Positions 7,098 to 36,603 of a DNA stretch of 57,087 nt are shown piece by piece. Below the pieces are notes generated by a model. That model saw nothing but the letters and a program-made list of their open reading frames with translations, had not been told where the DNA came from and searched no databases. The position numbers and the translations under genes were made by a program. Each line of letters begins with the position of its first letter. Position 1 is the stretch's first letter. The DNA is from Hyphomicrobiales bacterium (GTDB taxonomy: Bacteria; Pseudomonadota; Alphaproteobacteria; Rhizobiales; HXMU1428-3): contig JAEPQF010000001.1 of NCBI GenBank assembly GCA_017640685.1, positions 17,015 to 74,101 of the forward strand, written 5' to 3'.

Positions 7098-8207
7098 ATG
7101 GCAAAAAAAAGGGTTTTGTTGGCAGCTGGTGGTACTGGTGGGCATTTGTTCCCCGCGTTTGCTTTAACTGAAGAATTGAAACGACGTGATGTTGAGGTAC
7201 ACATCGTCACCGATGAGCGGGTTGATGTTATGGCTGGTAATAGTCCGGCTGATGAAATGCATGTGGTGCCCTCTGCCACAATGAAGGGGAAAAACCCAAT
7301 AGCACTTATGAAAACAGCGCTTACCCTTGGGCGTGGTGTTATGGCGGCGCGGCGTTTGCTTAAAAAAATCAATCCTGATTTTGTGCTTGGATTTGGGGGG
7401 TACCCGACATTTCCACCATTAATTGCAGCGGGTCAATTGGGAATTAAAACGGGGCTTCATGATCAGAACGCAGTGATGGGGCGGGCCAATAAGATGTTGG
7501 CCAACAGAGTTGATGTGATTGGCACTTCATTTCCGGATGTGAAATATCTACCTGAGGGGGCAAAAAATAAGGTTCGATTAACGGGGAACCCTGTTCGCGA
7601 TAAGGTTTTAGCTGTTCAAGATGTTGCATATCCCGCTTTAGATGCTAGAGCCTTGGCTGAAGGGGCGCAAAAATTTAAAATCTTAATTTTTGGAGGGAGC
7701 CAGGGAGCGCGTTTTTTCTCTGACTTTTTCCCAGCTGCCTTTGCTGAACTTGAAGAGGAAGTTCGGTCTAAGCTTTCTATTGTGCAACAATGCCGAACCG
7801 AAGATTTAGACCGTGTGAGTGCGCTTTACGAATATTCAGGGATCGAGGCAAAATGTGAGGCTTTTTTCGAGGATTTACCGCGTGAAATGAGCGAATCTCA
7901 CCTGGTTATTTCACGATCTGGTGCATCTACAGTGGCAGAATTGGCAGTTTGTGGGCGTCCTGCCATAATGGTGCCGCTTCCGCATGCGTTGGATAATGAC
8001 CAGCTTTTAAACGCGAAAATGCTTGAAAATGCTGGTGCAGGTTGGATTTTAGAGCAAAAAAACATCACAATGGCTGGGTTTCATAAGCAATTGTTAGGGT
8101 TTTTAGATGATCCACAGAGCTTGAAAAATGCTGCGAATGCTGCCAAATCGGTGGGGAATGCAGATGCGGTGGTAAAATTGGCTGATTTAGTGCTTGAATC
8201 AGTTTAG
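7098..8207 (+). CDS. murG: Undecaprenyl-PP-MurNAc-pentapeptide GlcNAc transferase (MurG)
   Basis: Peripheral membrane GT28 glycosyltransferase that converts lipid I to lipid II. The N-terminal GGTGGH loop (residues ~11-16), the GFGGYPTFP segment, the second glycine-rich loop GGSQGA near residue 198 and the UDP-GlcNAc-binding SRSGASTVAEL stretch are all present. Its length is 369 residues. Its stop codon lies inside a perfect 16-base palindrome that is followed by a T run. Confidence 0.97.
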   Translation: MAKKRVLLAAGGTGGHLFPAFALTEELKRRDVEVHIVTDERVDVMAGNSPADEMHVVPSATMKGKNPIALMKTALTLGRGVMAARRLLKKINPDFVLGFGGYPTFPPLIAAGQLGIKTGLHDQNAVMGRANKMLANRVDVIGTSFPDVKYLPEGAKNKVRLTGNPVRDKVLAVQDVAYPALDARALAEGAQKFKILIFGGSQGARFFSDFFPAAFAELEEEVRSKLSIVQQCRTEDLDRVSALYEYSGIEAKCEAFFEDLPREMSESHLVISRSGASTVAELAVCGRPAIMVPLPHALDNDQLLNAKMLENAGAGWILEQKNITMAGFHKQLLGFLDDPQSLKNAANAAKSVGNADAVVKLADLVLESV

Positions 8208-10056: not shown

Positions 10057-11001
10057 ATGGTGTTTGAAGATTATTTAGAGCGCTTTCAAGAGGCGATGCC
10101 AGAGCTAAGAGGGCGGCTTAAGGCGAATTCGCTGATGTCGGAGATCACCTGGTTTCGGGTTGGGGGGCCGGCACAGCTTTTATATACGCCAGCCGATGAA
10201 GCAGATCTCTCATATTTCATGAAAAATAAACCGGTTGATTTGCCGATTACTGTGATTGGGCTTGGCTCGAATTTATTGGTGAGAGATGGCGGTATACCTG
10301 GCATTGTTGTGCGCTTGGGGCGCGGTTTTAACTCGATTGAAGCTTTGGGTGACAATAAAATTAAAGTTGGAACCGCTGTTCCTGATATGAAATTAGCACG
10401 AGCAGCGGCTGAGCACGGTGTTGCAGGGCTGAGTTTCTATAGGGGGATTCCAGGTTCTATTGGTGGGGCGTTGCGGATGAATGCCGGTGCGCACGGTGGT
10501 GAAACCCGTGATTATTTGGTAGAAGCGCGCGCGGTTGATTATGAGGGGAATATTCACACCTTTTCAGCTGAGGAAATGGGGCACACTTACAGGAATTGTG
10601 CACTTCCTTATAATTTCATTTTCACTGAGGCTATTTTTAAAGGTCAGCCAGGTGAGAAAGATGAGATTGAAAAGGCCAATGCTGAGGTTGTGGCTTATAG
10701 AGAAGAAAAGCAACCTGTGAAAGATAGAACTGGTGGTAGCACATTTAAAAACCCGCCTGGACATAGTTCTTGGAAACTCATTGATGAAGCTGGACTTAGA
10801 GGCTTTAAAATTGGCGGTGCTAAAGTTTCTGAAAAACATTGTAATTTCTTAATCAATGAAGGGGATGCTACAGGAACGGATTTGGAAACACTTGGTGAAA
10901 CTGTTCGCAAGCGTGTTTTTGAAAAGAGTGGTGTAAAATTAGATTGGGAAATTAAACGTTTAGGCGTTGCCGACGTTATGGGAGAGGATTTGGCGCAATG
11001 A
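10057..11001 (+). CDS. murB: UDP-N-acetylenolpyruvoylglucosamine reductase (MurB)
   Basis: FAD enzyme that reduces UDP-GlcNAc-enolpyruvate to UDP-MurNAc with NADPH. The FAD-binding GLGSNLLVRDGG lies near residue 67, the YRGIPGSIGGALRMNAGA block near 127, and the catalytic serine region GGSTFKNP near 226, which fits the shorter type II MurB. The track begins at a GTG at 10015. The ATG at 10057 has GGAG five bases upstream and fits the family N-terminus better. Its TGA overlaps the ddl ATG (ATGA), implying translational coupling. Confidence 0.95.
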   Translation: MVFEDYLERFQEAMPELRGRLKANSLMSEITWFRVGGPAQLLYTPADEADLSYFMKNKPVDLPITVIGLGSNLLVRDGGIPGIVVRLGRGFNSIEALGDNKIKVGTAVPDMKLARAAAEHGVAGLSFYRGIPGSIGGALRMNAGAHGGETRDYLVEARAVDYEGNIHTFSAEEMGHTYRNCALPYNFIFTEAIFKGQPGEKDEIEKANAEVVAYREEKQPVKDRTGGSTFKNPPGHSSWKLIDEAGLRGFKIGGAKVSEKHCNFLINEGDATGTDLETLGETVRKRVFEKSGVKLDWEIKRLGVADVMGEDLAQ

Positions 11002-11921
11002 TTGATGAAAATGCTCACGTTGCGGTTTTAATGGGTGGCTGGTCTGCAGAGCGGGAAGTGAGCCTTAGCAGCGGTAAAGCGTGTGCTAAAGCGCTTCGAG
11101 AAGAAGGTTTTACAGTTACTGAAGTTGATATTGAGCGCAATATTGCCACGGTTTTAGAAGAACTAAAGCCTGATGTTTGCTTTAATGCGTTGCATGGACC
11201 TTTTGGGGAAGATGGCTGTATTCAAGGCATTTTGGAAGTTTTGAACATTCCTTATACTCACTCTGGTGTTCTGGCGTCTTCAATGGCGATGCATAAAAAA
11301 ATCGCTAAAGAGATTATTGGGGGGGCTGGTGTTCCTGTTGCGGGGGATAAAGTGGTCAAACGCGGGGAAGCGGCTTTAGGTCATTTAAAATTACCTCCTT
11401 ATGTTCTAAAACCGATTGCTGATGGTTCGAGCTGCGGGATTTTTATTGTGAAAGATATGGATACCCCGCCTCCAGGAAGTGATATTCTTGCGGCTGGCGC
11501 TGAAGATGATGACATGCTTATTGAAGAGTTTGTTGAAGGTCTGGAGCTGACATGTGGTGTTTTGGGAAACAGGGCGCTTGATGTGACTGAAATTCGCTCT
11601 GAGGCACATGAATTTTATGATTATGATGCTAAATATGCACCAGGCGGTTCACAACACATCATTCCTGCGGAAATTTCACCAAATATTTACCAATTCATAC
11701 AGAAATGGACTCTAACGGCCCATAATGCTCTTGGGTGCCGCGGCGTGAGCCGTGCTGATTTTAGATATGATGAGAAGAAAGATCTTCTTGTATGTCTTGA
11801 AGTGAACACTCAGCCTGGCATGACAGCGACCTCTCTTTTGCCTGAAATGGCTGAAAAAGCTGGTTGGAGTTTTAATGAGTTGGTGCGCTGGATTTTGGAG
11901 GATGCATCTTGCAATCGATGA
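10998..11921 (+). CDS. ddl: D-alanine--D-alanine ligase (Ddl)
   Basis: ATP-grasp enzyme that makes the D-Ala-D-Ala used by MurF. The N-terminal VLMGGWSAEREVSL, the FNALHGPFGEDG segment, the ATP-grasp lid region and the metal-binding CLEVNTQPGMT near the C-terminus are present. Its 307 residues match the DdlB type found inside dcw clusters. It overlaps murB by four bases and ftsQ by thirteen, so the three are probably co-translated. Confidence 0.96.
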   Translation: MIDENAHVAVLMGGWSAEREVSLSSGKACAKALREEGFTVTEVDIERNIATVLEELKPDVCFNALHGPFGEDGCIQGILEVLNIPYTHSGVLASSMAMHKKIAKEIIGGAGVPVAGDKVVKRGEAALGHLKLPPYVLKPIADGSSCGIFIVKDMDTPPPGSDILAAGAEDDDMLIEEFVEGLELTCGVLGNRALDVTEIRSEAHEFYDYDAKYAPGGSQHIIPAEISPNIYQFIQKWTLTAHNALGCRGVSRADFRYDEKKDLLVCLEVNTQPGMTATSLLPEMAEKAGWSFNELVRWILEDASCNR

Positions 11922-12880
11922 TGAATAGAGGGAATTCAAAGACTTCTGAAGCATCTGTTTCAGAGAGCCTCCCTTCTATTGGTTGTTATGTTAAAGATGA
12001 ATATGCTGAAGAATATCATATTGCGCCTTCATCTGAGCGCTATATGCCGCAAACGTCCAAAAAGACTTCTTTTGGGCGTTTTTGGTTTGGACTGATTGTT
12101 TTCCTCATTATTGCAGTTGGGTTGTTTTTTGGCTTTAGGCGCCATATTCCGGATGATTTTTCTGTAGTTGCGATTGTTCAGGATTATGGCCAACGGCTTT
12201 TCTCCATTGTTCAATTCCCTATAAAAGAAGTTCATATCGCAGGGCATAAATATACAAAAGAAAGAGCCATTGTTGAACGTTTGGGGGATGTTTGGGATCA
12301 ATCTCTTGTGTCATTAAATACGTTTGAAGCACAAAGAAAAATTGAAAGTTTGCCTTGGATTTTAAAGGCTGATGTGCAGCGTGTTTTTCCGCATGGTTTG
12401 AATATTTATGTGGAAGAGCGTGAGCCGATTGGCCGTTTTGTGACGCTTTCAGGGACTTATGTTTTTGATAAGCTTGGGGTGATTATTCAAAAGGTAAAAG
12501 TTGGCTCTCATTTTGAACTTCCTATTTATGAGGGCCGAAAAGCGCCACAATCCGCGAATGAGCTGCGCGAAATTTTGACAAAATTTGATGATTTACAACC
12601 TCTCATAGTTCGGTTTCAAAGGGTTGATCAACGTCGTTGGACTTTGATTTTACATAATGAAATGAAAGTTTTGTTGCCGGAGAATAGACTAGAGGGGGCT
12701 TTAAGTCGGTTGCGGGCGTTGCAAGCTCAACATAATATTTTAAACCGCGAATTGGCGCATATTGATTTGCGGCTTGGGGATCGGATAACCTTGCGACCGA
12801 AAAAAAGCAAAAAAATCAAAATATTTTCAAGAGATGAAGATTTTTCTGTCGGTAAAACGGCTGATCAAGATAAATTATAG
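11909..12880 (+). CDS. ftsQ: Cell division protein FtsQ
   Basis: Bitopic division protein linking the FtsA/FtsZ ring to periplasmic partners. The N-terminal cytoplasmic part (~52 residues) is followed by one membrane segment near residues 53-74 and a POTRA domain around 107-175 (VHIAGHKYTKERAIVERLGD region, then the WILKADVQRVFP strand). The C-terminal tail is lysine-rich. A TTG at 11909 has GGAGG seven bases upstream and is the likely start; ATGs at 11918 and 11921 are alternatives. It overlaps the end of ddl. Confidence 0.93.
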   Translation: MQSMMNRGNSKTSEASVSESLPSIGCYVKDEYAEEYHIAPSSERYMPQTSKKTSFGRFWFGLIVFLIIAVGLFFGFRRHIPDDFSVVAIVQDYGQRLFSIVQFPIKEVHIAGHKYTKERAIVERLGDVWDQSLVSLNTFEAQRKIESLPWILKADVQRVFPHGLNIYVEEREPIGRFVTLSGTYVFDKLGVIIQKVKVGSHFELPIYEGRKAPQSANELREILTKFDDLQPLIVRFQRVDQRRWTLILHNEMKVLLPENRLEGALSRLRALQAQHNILNRELAHIDLRLGDRITLRPKKSKKIKIFSRDEDFSVGKTADQDKL

Positions 12881-32319: not shown

Positions 32320-32628
32320 TTGTGGGGTTTTCTCAGCTTATCGTCTTTATAGATTCTTGAGGGTCAATCTATCGGAGTTTTATGGGAAAAAAAAGGAGAG
32401 GGGGCTAATAGACGTGCTTATTGAGGCCAAAAGGGGAGGTTATCCACTTTTGGGTTGAGTTGCGTGGTTAAAGTGAGGTTTTTTAGCTCTTTAGTGGCTT
32501 TTGGAATGAGAATGGATTTATTACGTCTTTTTAACTTTACTCTTTCATAGATTTTGCCCAATCTTGTTTTGATTTATGTGTTTAACACTGTGGAATTATT
32601 CAAAGAATTTGAGGAAGGCTGGGTTAAA
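32320..32628. other. Divergent spacer upstream of pcrA
   Basis: About 300 bases holding the promoters of pcrA (minus) and the small secreted-protein gene (plus). No repeat copy, terminator or known regulatory motif was recognised. Confidence 0.4.
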
Positions 32629-32955
32629 ATGCGCGTTTTATTTGTACTATCGATTTTTTGTTTTGGTGCTTTGGTATCTTCAAATGTTCATGCTTACCAA
32701 GGAATGGAAAAAGATTTTGCAACTTGCACACAAGGCAGTGGCAAGGTGTCCAACACTCAGATTGTTAAGGCTTGTACGCAGTTGATTGATAATGCTGTGA
32801 AGCATAATTCTTTAACGGGCTACTTCTTTGCATTGCGTGCAATAGCGAACACTGACAAGGCAAGCAATTGCCGGGATGCTCGCCAAGCCATGAAACTGCT
32901 TGATAACCCTAAGCTTATTGAGCACACGAAACAGTTGATTAAAATCAACTGCTAG
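32629..32955 (+). CDS. Small secreted Cys-containing protein
   Basis: 108 residues. A clear signal peptide (MRVLFVLSIFCFGALVSSNVHA) is followed by a helical domain with four Cys (TCT, ACT, NCR and the C-terminal INC), consistent with two disulphides in the periplasm. The pattern 'C ... IVKACTQLI ... FFALRAIA' resembles the TPR-like repeats in small alphaproteobacterial secreted proteins. GAGGAAGG lies upstream of the ATG at 32629; the track's earlier start at 32554 lacks one. The function is unknown. Confidence 0.55.
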   Translation: MRVLFVLSIFCFGALVSSNVHAYQGMEKDFATCTQGSGKVSNTQIVKACTQLIDNAVKHNSLTGYFFALRAIANTDKASNCRDARQAMKLLDNPKLIEHTKQLIKINC

Positions 32956-34568: not shown

Positions 34569-34766
34569 AACATTCCATGATTGTTTAGCTGGTGAATGAC
34601 AGCGTTAGACATATAGGATACAATATACTCTTCCTTAGAACGACCGGCAACCAAGCAAATTTCTTCGAAACAACAGTGGTTTATTTGTTAATTTACTGCC
34701 TGGTGTTTAGAAAAAAGAGAGGCCGCAAAATTAATTACGACCTCCCTGGCTTTATTGTCCCTTAGC

Positions 34767-35390
34767 TTAATAAGTTTGAATGAGTTTGTCGTAATCACCG
34801 CGGATTTGGAGAATGATGGTAACATCTTTTTTGTCGCGGTTTCGCCAGAACCAACCGTGTTTTCCATCTCTTGGTGCTGTAAAAGCTCCTTCGGCGCCTT
34901 TCTTGCCACGCCCTTTTTCATAGCTCACTTCACCACTTGCTCCATCGCCATGAAAGTCGTAATTGATGCGGCCATTTTCTGCTCTCCATTTATATTCAAT
35001 GGCTTGGCCTTTTTTCATGATGAGTTTCCACTCGATGCCTTTGCCTGGTTTTAGGGTGAAGCTTTTTTCATCCTTCCAGTTTTCTTCTTTTGTTTTAGCT
35101 TCTTCAGCATGAGCGGTGCTGATAAAAAGCTTGAAAAGAAAAGATTGCTGTTTTGCGGCAGCATCTTTCTTTCGATCTTCTTCTGCTTCTTTTTCGAGCT
35201 GAGTTTTGATCTCTCCCATTTCGGTTAGGCCGATGACGCGCCCGATGCCTGTTGGATCTATGGCATATTCTGCAGGAAGCACAATGGTGACTAAGATCAC
35301 CATTGCAGAAATAAATGCAATGAAGGTTGAACGAAGGAGCTGACCGGTGCTTGGCAAGTCTTCCATGTTTGGTTTTTGTGTGTTGTACAT
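34767..35390 (-). CDS. Transmembrane anchor protein (HupE-linked family)
   Basis: 207 residues. The N-terminus is cytoplasmic, one membrane span lies near residues 23-43, and a periplasmic domain follows with a charged linker rich in Lys/Glu/Ala (~70-110) and a beta-rich C-terminal part containing an EWKLIMKKGQ segment. The family is often annotated just as 'transmembrane anchor protein' and found beside HupE-like genes, as here, where hupE is 17 bases upstream. AAGGAATAAGA is the ribosome binding site. The two proteins probably act together. Confidence 0.7.
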   Translation of the reverse strand: MYNTQKPNMEDLPSTGQLLRSTFIAFISAMVILVTIVLPAEYAIDPTGIGRVIGLTEMGEIKTQLEKEAEEDRKKDAAAKQQSFLFKLFISTAHAEEAKTKEENWKDEKSFTLKPGKGIEWKLIMKKGQAIEYKWRAENGRINYDFHGDGASGEVSYEKGRGKKGAEGAFTAPRDGKHGWFWRNRDKKDVTIILQIRGDYDKLIQTY

Positions 35391-35407
35391 TCTTATTCCT
35401 TAGAAAA

Positions 35408-36136
35408 TTAGTTTGAGAGTAGATAGCCGCTGATCTGATATCCCATCAGTAGGAAACCAGCGGACATCATGATGATGTTGGCTGTGTAAGCTTGGTGCCA
35501 AAAACCGAGTGTGCGGCGCCAGAACCCCATGAGGATTAAGATCAAAGCTAATGCCAGGATTTGTCCGAGCTCGACACCAACATTGAAGGCAAGCAAATTG
35601 GCCAATAGCCCTTCTTCTGAAATTTCATATTCAAGAATTTTGGTAGCAAGACCAAGCCCGTGAAAGAGGCCGAAAATTAATGTGGCGGCTTTCGTGTTGG
35701 GCTGGAGCCCAAACCAACGTTGATAGGCGCCCACATTATCTAGTGCTTTGTAAACCACGGACAAGCCGATGATGGCGTCAATGATATAAGCGTTTACATT
35801 CCAGCCAAAATAGACACCAGCTAACATGGTTGTTGAGTGCCCGATGGCAAATAGGCTGACATAAAGAGCGACGTCTTTCATCTTATAAAGAAAGAAGACA
35901 ACGCCAAAAAGAAACAGGATGTGATCATAGCCTGTTATCATATGTTTGGCGCCAAGATAGGCAAAGGGAATTAGATTAACCCCCCAAATTTCCTGGACAT
36001 AGCCTGCATCACCTGCAGTGATGTTATGAGCAGCGACACTATTTATCATTAGGAATAGCGTAGCCGCAGTGATGAGGAGGACAGACGTCATTTGCCTTAT
36101 GGACAAAATGCGCCCGCACTCATTTATCAAGTGCAT
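35408..36136 (-). CDS. HupE/UreJ-family membrane protein
   Basis: 242 residues. A signal sequence (ending near SVAA) is followed by six or seven membrane spans with the family's His/Asp motifs inside them: GYDHILFL near residue 68, AIGHSTTM near 97, and FGLFHGLG near 157. HupE/UreJ proteins are nickel or cobalt permeases or accessories of hydrogenase and urease; neither enzyme is encoded here, so the transported metal is not known. GGAG precedes the ATG at good spacing. It is followed directly by the anchor-protein gene. Confidence 0.8.
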   Translation of the reverse strand: MHLINECGRILSIRQMTSVLLITAATLFLMINSVAAHNITAGDAGYVQEIWGVNLIPFAYLGAKHMITGYDHILFLFGVVFFLYKMKDVALYVSLFAIGHSTTMLAGVYFGWNVNAYIIDAIIGLSVVYKALDNVGAYQRWFGLQPNTKAATLIFGLFHGLGLATKILEYEISEEGLLANLLAFNVGVELGQILALALILILMGFWRRTLGFWHQAYTANIIMMSAGFLLMGYQISGYLLSN

Positions 36137-36198
36137 AGAAACTTCTCCAGCTCTAATTTTTAAATTTTAATGATCAATATTTTTATTTTGAAGTTTGA

Positions 36199-36603
36199 TT
36201 AGGCACGCGGAGGGGGATCTTGCAGAAAAAGAGCTGCTAGTTTGATTGGTGGGAACCGTCCTTTGCTTTCAAGGAACGGTAGTTCGAGAAGGGCTGCATA
36301 TGGCGGCGCTATCATGACGACAGCGCTGTGGTCATGGTCAATATTATCATGTGCGTGACCGTGCAATAGCCAATAAAAATCTTCAAAGTGGTTATGAAAG
36401 TCAATATGGGAGTGCCCATGCTCTGAGACTAAATGTTCTTTATGTTCTGTGAATTCGACATGTTCACTGAATTCGACAAGGTTAGCTGGGTTATGGGAGA
36501 GAATATTCACCATCGACATATGAATGAGAGAGGCACATAACAATAGAGGCAGGAATAGAGAAAATTTCTCTTTCGCTTTCATTTTTGTTTTTATGAAAAG
36601 CAT
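36199..36603 (-). CDS. His-rich, membrane-anchored putative metal-binding protein
   Basis: 134 residues. One hydrophobic segment near the N-terminus is followed by a His/Glu/Asp-rich stretch (EHGHSHIDFHNHF and HGHAHDNIDHDH), then a Pro-rich tail ending DPPPRA, as in several small proteins that accompany metal transporters. I chose the ATG at 36603; a TTG at 36624 and an ATG at 36582 are alternatives and none has an ideal ribosome binding site. It is 63 bases upstream of the hupE-like gene on the same strand, so they may share a transcript. Confidence 0.6.
   Translation of the reverse strand: MLFIKTKMKAKEKFSLFLPLLLCASLIHMSMVNILSHNPANLVEFSEHVEFTEHKEHLVSEHGHSHIDFHNHFEDFYWLLHGHAHDNIDHDHSAVVMIAPPYAALLELPFLESKGRFPPIKLAALFLQDPPPRA

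Follow-up and report, generated by a model that had tools for sequence, protein, structure and literature searches.

Three adjoining minus-strand genes in a 57,087-nucleotide stretch of DNA from a Hyphomicrobiales bacterium (the window) encode a His-rich protein, a permease of the HupE/UreJ family and an anchor protein, and they raise the question of what such a permease does at a site where, as the original prediction had noted, neither urease nor hydrogenase is found among the open reading frames of the window. The prediction took the trio for a metal module serving some other client, and this is right insofar as the genes lie outside any urease or hydrogenase cluster; acquisition for another client fares poorly, as the relatives of the trio are linked to exporters and sensors. 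We consider it likely, with a probability of about 0.7, that the trio is a mobile stress cassette for nickel/cobalt (divalent metal), present here as an orphan copy.

Anatomy of the gene trio

The His-rich protein (134 aa) is encoded at 36199-36603, the permease (242 aa, PF13795) at 35408-36136 and the anchor protein (207 aa) at 34767-35390, all on the minus strand, confirming the three genes that had been predicted. Their frames are intact and co-directional, have ribosome-binding-like sequences, and form a single unit closed by an intrinsic terminator after the anchor gene (34716-34747, minus strand; a 13-pair stem followed by TTTTT). The GC content of the cassette is not distinguishable from that of its surroundings.

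The first gene product matches no family and is a small, putatively secreted or membrane-anchored protein consisting of an N-terminal hydrophobic segment, an HGHSH...HGHAHDNIDHDHS core and a C-terminal DPPPRA tail, with its 15 His residues falling mainly within HGHSH, HGHAHD and DHDHS. In at least 64 of 78 related loci (from the best 80 of 286 stretches), hupE is preceded by a His-rich small open reading frame with a similar core, the remaining counts being due in part to wrong reading frames picked by the script; the tail of these counterparts mostly reads ERPPR or DRPPR. On a Klebsiella ncr plasmid (L116:10378-10749 and 10812-12544), the interval from the cassette to ncrA encodes another small His-rich protein that ends in an RPP tail, along with a methyltransferase-domain protein and a hypothetical protein.

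A short HupE/UreJ-2 permease

Against PF13795 (HupE_UreJ_2) the permease scores 180.9 bits (E=1.8e-53, cut-off 24.5), and it comprises a signal peptide and about six to seven membrane helices. Its AF2 model is helical (pLDDT 84) and gave no significant PDB match in a fold search; a PDB sequence search with the HupE and anchor profiles likewise returned nothing significant. Its identity to 56 cassette HupEs is 59-72%, and about 80 columns of the alignment (A2) are invariant, among them those of the histidines H37, H65, H72, H100 and H159. All 76 scorable cassette HupEs have a signal peptidase-like site, mostly A-x-A, that is followed at once by a His; in the window protein the sequence pattern predicts cleavage after VAA, which would make His37 (codon at 36026-36028, minus strand) the mature N-terminus. 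The HX5DH motif (H65-MITGY-D71-H72; 35921-35944, minus strand) falls in invariant columns and is probably the metal path, metal transport by this protein being putative.

Canonical HupE/UreJ proteins, the nickel permeases linked to hydrogenase or urease, belong to PF04955 and carry the motif FHGX[AV]HGXE. The cassette HupE has the HX5DH motif and an FHG stretch in common with them; however, the window protein matched PF13795 only, with neither a PF04955 match nor the FHGX[AV]HGXE motif, and its second motif reads FHGLGLATK where the PF04955 protein of its own genome has FHGHAHGTE. Canonical HupE/UreJ genes moreover cluster with hydrogenase or urease, whereas those of the cassette stand outside such clusters.

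Another parallel is offered by the anglerases, in which Ang-1/Ang-2 domains are fused to HupE/UreJ-2 and the fused protein binds metal via an N-terminal His, for which metal capture and import have been proposed (PMC12537917). Anglerases and the cassette HupE both combine a PF13795 permease with a His right after the signal peptide cleavage site, but the window protein has too few residues for an Ang domain, since only 32 residues separate its cleavage site from the DH motif compared with 133 and 185 in two long relatives from the order. The cassette also differs from anglerases in having separate His-rich and GOLD-like partners and in being linked to exporters. Among genomes of the order, the anchor accompanies the short HupE type and not the long types.

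A GOLD-like domain in the anchor protein

Homologues of the third protein are annotated as "transmembrane anchor protein", and it has no Pfam or NCBIfam match. It is predicted to consist of a membrane helix (residues 15-42), a long helix (55-85) and a nine-strand periplasmic domain, in an AF2 model with a pLDDT of 87 overall and of about 98 across most of the C-terminal domain. Foldseek matched this predicted model to 7rrm, 5gu5 and 5azw (E ~1e-5); the best PDB folds for the outer domain are p24/TMED GOLD domains, with 7rrm (E=1e-5) reaching a TM-score of 0.81 by target at an rmsd of 1.9 A. Fold search and conservation together delimit a GOLD-like beta-sandwich at residues 107-206 (34773-35072, minus strand), in which H147 is invariant and H178 nearly so. 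The outer-domain fold and the order outward from the membrane (membrane helix, long helix, GOLD) are those of p24/TMED proteins, from which the anchor protein differs in being bacterial, in having its membrane helix at the N-terminus and in sharing only 10-14% identity. The window protein does not match the GOLD sequence profile (PF01105), and a weak EMP24_GP25L match occurs in only 1 of 58 anchor family members (E=0.009); since sequence profiles do not confirm GOLD, we treat this as a fold resemblance and not as shown homology. The protein is confidently predicted from its model to be more than an anchor, with a GOLD-like beta-sandwich as its outer part. Two related loci, L041 (8688-9350) and L079 (8712-9299), have a second anchor-like gene directly after the first.

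Conservation of the cassette and linkage to metal-resistance genes

Querying with the anchor protein retrieved 286 related stretches; the analysis used the 80 best matches, a sample skewed to Rhodobacterales. In 79 of these best 80 loci the gene immediately upstream of the anchor gene is hupE, the exception being located at a stretch end, so the trio is a real unit, as had been proposed. The cassette occurs in many Pseudomonadota, and tblastn located the anchor gene on 390 plasmid records, with Klebsiella and Enterobacter accounting for about half.

Using probe genes taken from annotated plasmids, we counted metal genes near the cassette in the same best 80 of 286. A CsoR/RcnR-family sensor is present at 57 loci, where by our own estimate chance would give about 0.5 sensors among 80 such stretches at one or two per 4 Mb genome, and an NreB/NcrA-like MFS pump at 52; RcnA, a P-type ATPase and CzcA follow with 15, 12 and 9 loci, respectively. 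At least one of sensor, MFS pump, RcnA and CzcA accompanies the cassette at 63 of the 80 loci, and a [NiFe]-hydrogenase large subunit at none. The other 17, several on short stretches, have no such neighbor, and those inspected are mostly surrounded by unrelated genes, one of them by a TniQ transposition gene and a multicopper oxidase.

Examples come from annotated plasmids. The Klebsiella and E. coli copies lie about 2.5-5 kb from ncrA-ncrB; in K. pneumoniae ncrA, ncrB and ncrC start ~5 kb beyond the cassette, and the E. coli region is comparable. The Acinetobacter cassette is immediately downstream of CzcCBA, the P. aeruginosa anchor gene is near CzcCBA, and in Sulfitobacter and Paracoccus the cassette is divergent from a metal-sensing repressor. 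The sister group of the window HupE and anchor (SH-aLRT 93) is made up mainly of Roseobacteraceae/Paracoccaceae cassettes, most of which have both a sensor and an operator.

A palindrome of the type TATCCYCC..GGRGGATA was found upstream of the cassette in 42 of 79 loci (from the best 80 of 286), compared with 0.2 in mononucleotide shuffles, and is mostly located in the divergent gap between sensor and cassette; at locus L007 it is present with no sensor found nearby. Such a C-tract/G-tract form is typical of RcnR/DmeR-like sites. The region upstream of the window cassette contains no RcnR/DmeR-type operator-like palindrome, the only C-run in the scan of the window being inside the His-rich coding region, and no convincing Zur/NikR/Fur-like palindrome was seen by eye in the window. 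There is also no CsoR/RcnR-family sensor or pump near the window cassette.

The ncrABC, nirABCD and nre determinants, with their NcrB, DmeR and RcnR-type sensors, are the known systems to which these loci connect: relatives of the cassette lie divergent from them or a few kb away and have the C-tract/G-tract palindrome in common with them, while the trio itself includes neither pump nor sensor and the window copy stands alone. The ncrABC genes confer nickel resistance on Enterobacter and E. coli K-12, with NcrB as negative regulator (PMC8545094). In Sphingobium ba1 the most nickel-induced gene is IL54_0275, which encodes a HupE/UreJ-domain protein in a cluster with NreB and an RND system; its authors called this induction counterintuitive for a permease and suggested a role in sequestration (PMC5557971). 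The domain position in IL54_0275 (33-185) appears compatible with the short HupE type, and a Sphingopyxis locus (L073) has a gene content similar to that of the Sphingobium cluster. We found no publication describing deletion or expression of this cassette on its own.

Nickel enzymes, sensors and other permeases of the host

The absence of nickel enzymes holds for the window and does not extend to the genome, in which other contigs encode hydrogenase: a full-length [NiFe]-hydrogenase large subunit is on contig C81 (737 bits) and further hydrogenase-like matches are on contig C176. The genome also encodes CobN (B12 synthesis), a NicO-family protein and, on the 9.4-kb contig C30, a pair of overlapping PF04955 HupE/UreJ genes (L132:4558-5774, G000) with no urease or hydrogenase genes recognized on that contig. 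The proposed search for urease, hydrogenase and cobalamin genes was thus positive for [NiFe]-hydrogenase and CobN and essentially negative for urease, which returned a partial match of 24 bits only. A nickel enzyme as client of the trio was rejected on these grounds, urease being essentially absent and the hydrogenase being unlinked and present also in genomes of the genus in which no cassette was seen.

The only PF02583 sensor gene of the genome adjoins a CDF-type transporter gene on another contig (C178, L120:1471-2783), preceded by the C-tract site ATATACCCCCCTATA. Named from sequence, this sensor and the His-rich transporter would be a dmeRF-like pair; a stretch of unread bases splits the transporter gene. 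A search for an NreB homologue in the host genome, run with no positive control, found none.

The probable insertion site in the same genus

Among seven genomes of the genus, five encode the full [NiFe]-hydrogenase. A PF13795 gene is present in five of the seven as open frames of 373-497 aa and is missing from two, and none of the seven has an open frame of short-HupE size; the two long PF13795 genes that are readable lack the cassette signature and an anchor.

The trio was noted earlier to be flanked by a cupredoxin and a ClC channel, which is accurate as to position. Three same-genus genomes keep the order AsmA-like gene to ClC, followed by a cupredoxin in two and a UvrD-type helicase gene in two. 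The gap that the cassette and a YdjM-like gene fill in the window holds other genes or none in these genomes; at L159 the helicase gene directly follows ClC. Because relatives within the genus have different or no genes in this gap, the cassette is most simply a local insertion, and because they keep the flanks without it, the flanks carry no functional message; ClC and cupredoxin were ruled out as functional partners, ClC being kept without the cassette in all three and cupredoxin in two. No repeat borders of 25 nt or longer surround the insertion in the window.

In one same-genus genome (G033), a metallo-beta-lactamase-fold-like gene has been inserted into this gap between two copies of the 3' end of ClC (134 nt, 90%; L157:6636-6769 and 8031-8164), which makes the gap an insertion hotspot with a possible repeated border. 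In this genome the variable gap also holds a gene that, going by its sequence, encodes a caspase-like peptidase (L157:8823-10070). Beside the cupredoxin gene of the window, a small secreted-looking protein is encoded at 32554-32955 that is conserved in two same-genus genomes.

Proposed function and alternatives

Defense against excess metal fits the locus better than acquisition does because its relatives occur with nickel/cobalt sensors, exporters and an RcnR/DmeR-type operator. In most of these relatives, a CsoR/RcnR-family sensor would derepress its regulon at nickel/cobalt excess, together with NreB/NcrA, RcnA and CzcCBA pumps. Periplasmic metal would be held and organized around the short HupE by its two partners, the secreted His-rich protein and the GOLD-like protein tethered to the membrane; HupE is the one whose mature N-terminal His would face the periplasm. 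The complex would keep metal out of the cytoplasm or move it from there, lowering the free metal load. The host copy would have lost, or never had, a local sensor, pump and operator. The trio, its linkage, the operator-like site, the conserved His behind the signal peptide site and the predicted fold come from the analysis, whereas we infer that a complex forms, which metal is handled in the host, that the direction is export or sequestration, and whatever the orphan copy may do.

HupE relatives tested elsewhere import nickel, according to papers cited in PMC12537917 and PMC10142276. Regulation points instead to export or sequestration, since import would be self-defeating if, as it appears, the sensors that control the exporters and derepress on nickel or cobalt also control the cassette. 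It is improbable that the His-rich and GOLD-like proteins capture nickel or cobalt for import through the short HupE to supply hydrogenases or B12, even though the host has a [NiFe]-hydrogenase and CobN, metal capture and import have been proposed for fused Ang-HupE/UreJ-2 proteins (PMC12537917) and R. leguminosarum HupE is cited in the same paper as a nickel importer: a canonical PF04955 pair exists on C30, same-genus genomes with the full hydrogenase have the long PF13795 frames described above, and the relatives (best 80 of 286) are exporter-linked and never accompanied by a hydrogenase large subunit.

Import might still be reconciled with the regulation if the permease admitted a little nickel for a fast repressor response while its partners buffered the periplasm, and the importer character of HupE relatives and the divergence of the cassette from a sensor gene in most loci would suit such a helper; but no CsoR/RcnR-family sensor stands beside the cassette in Acinetobacter, in other RND-linked loci or in the window, making this the least likely of the alternatives. 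Nor do we think it likely that the host copy is a decayed or neutral remnant, acquired and now of no function. The variable chromosomal spot, the missing local regulator, pump and operator, and the seven same-genus genomes with no short-HupE-sized frame would all agree with this, whereas three intact frames with their conserved His residues, ribosome-binding-like sequences and a terminator would not be expected of one.

We suggest tentatively, and with rather more doubt than conviction, that the trio is a distinct, uncharacterized periplasmic metal complex, a "split anglerase" in which a separate His-rich protein and a p24-like GOLD scaffold stand in for the capture domain and the HupE-type permease works on the export or sequestration side of nickel/cobalt homeostasis, the module being mobile on chromosomes and plasmids, including those of clinical Enterobacteriaceae. 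Its parts are of known kinds, and their combination is apparently little studied, widespread and plasmid-borne. HupE/UreJ proteins are usually annotated as nickel importers for hydrogenase or urease, and the cassette is tied to nickel/cobalt export regulons; if the cassette acts in resistance, many "nickel uptake" annotations would have the direction reversed, and plasmid metal resistance would include a common but little-studied component with a testable anatomy.
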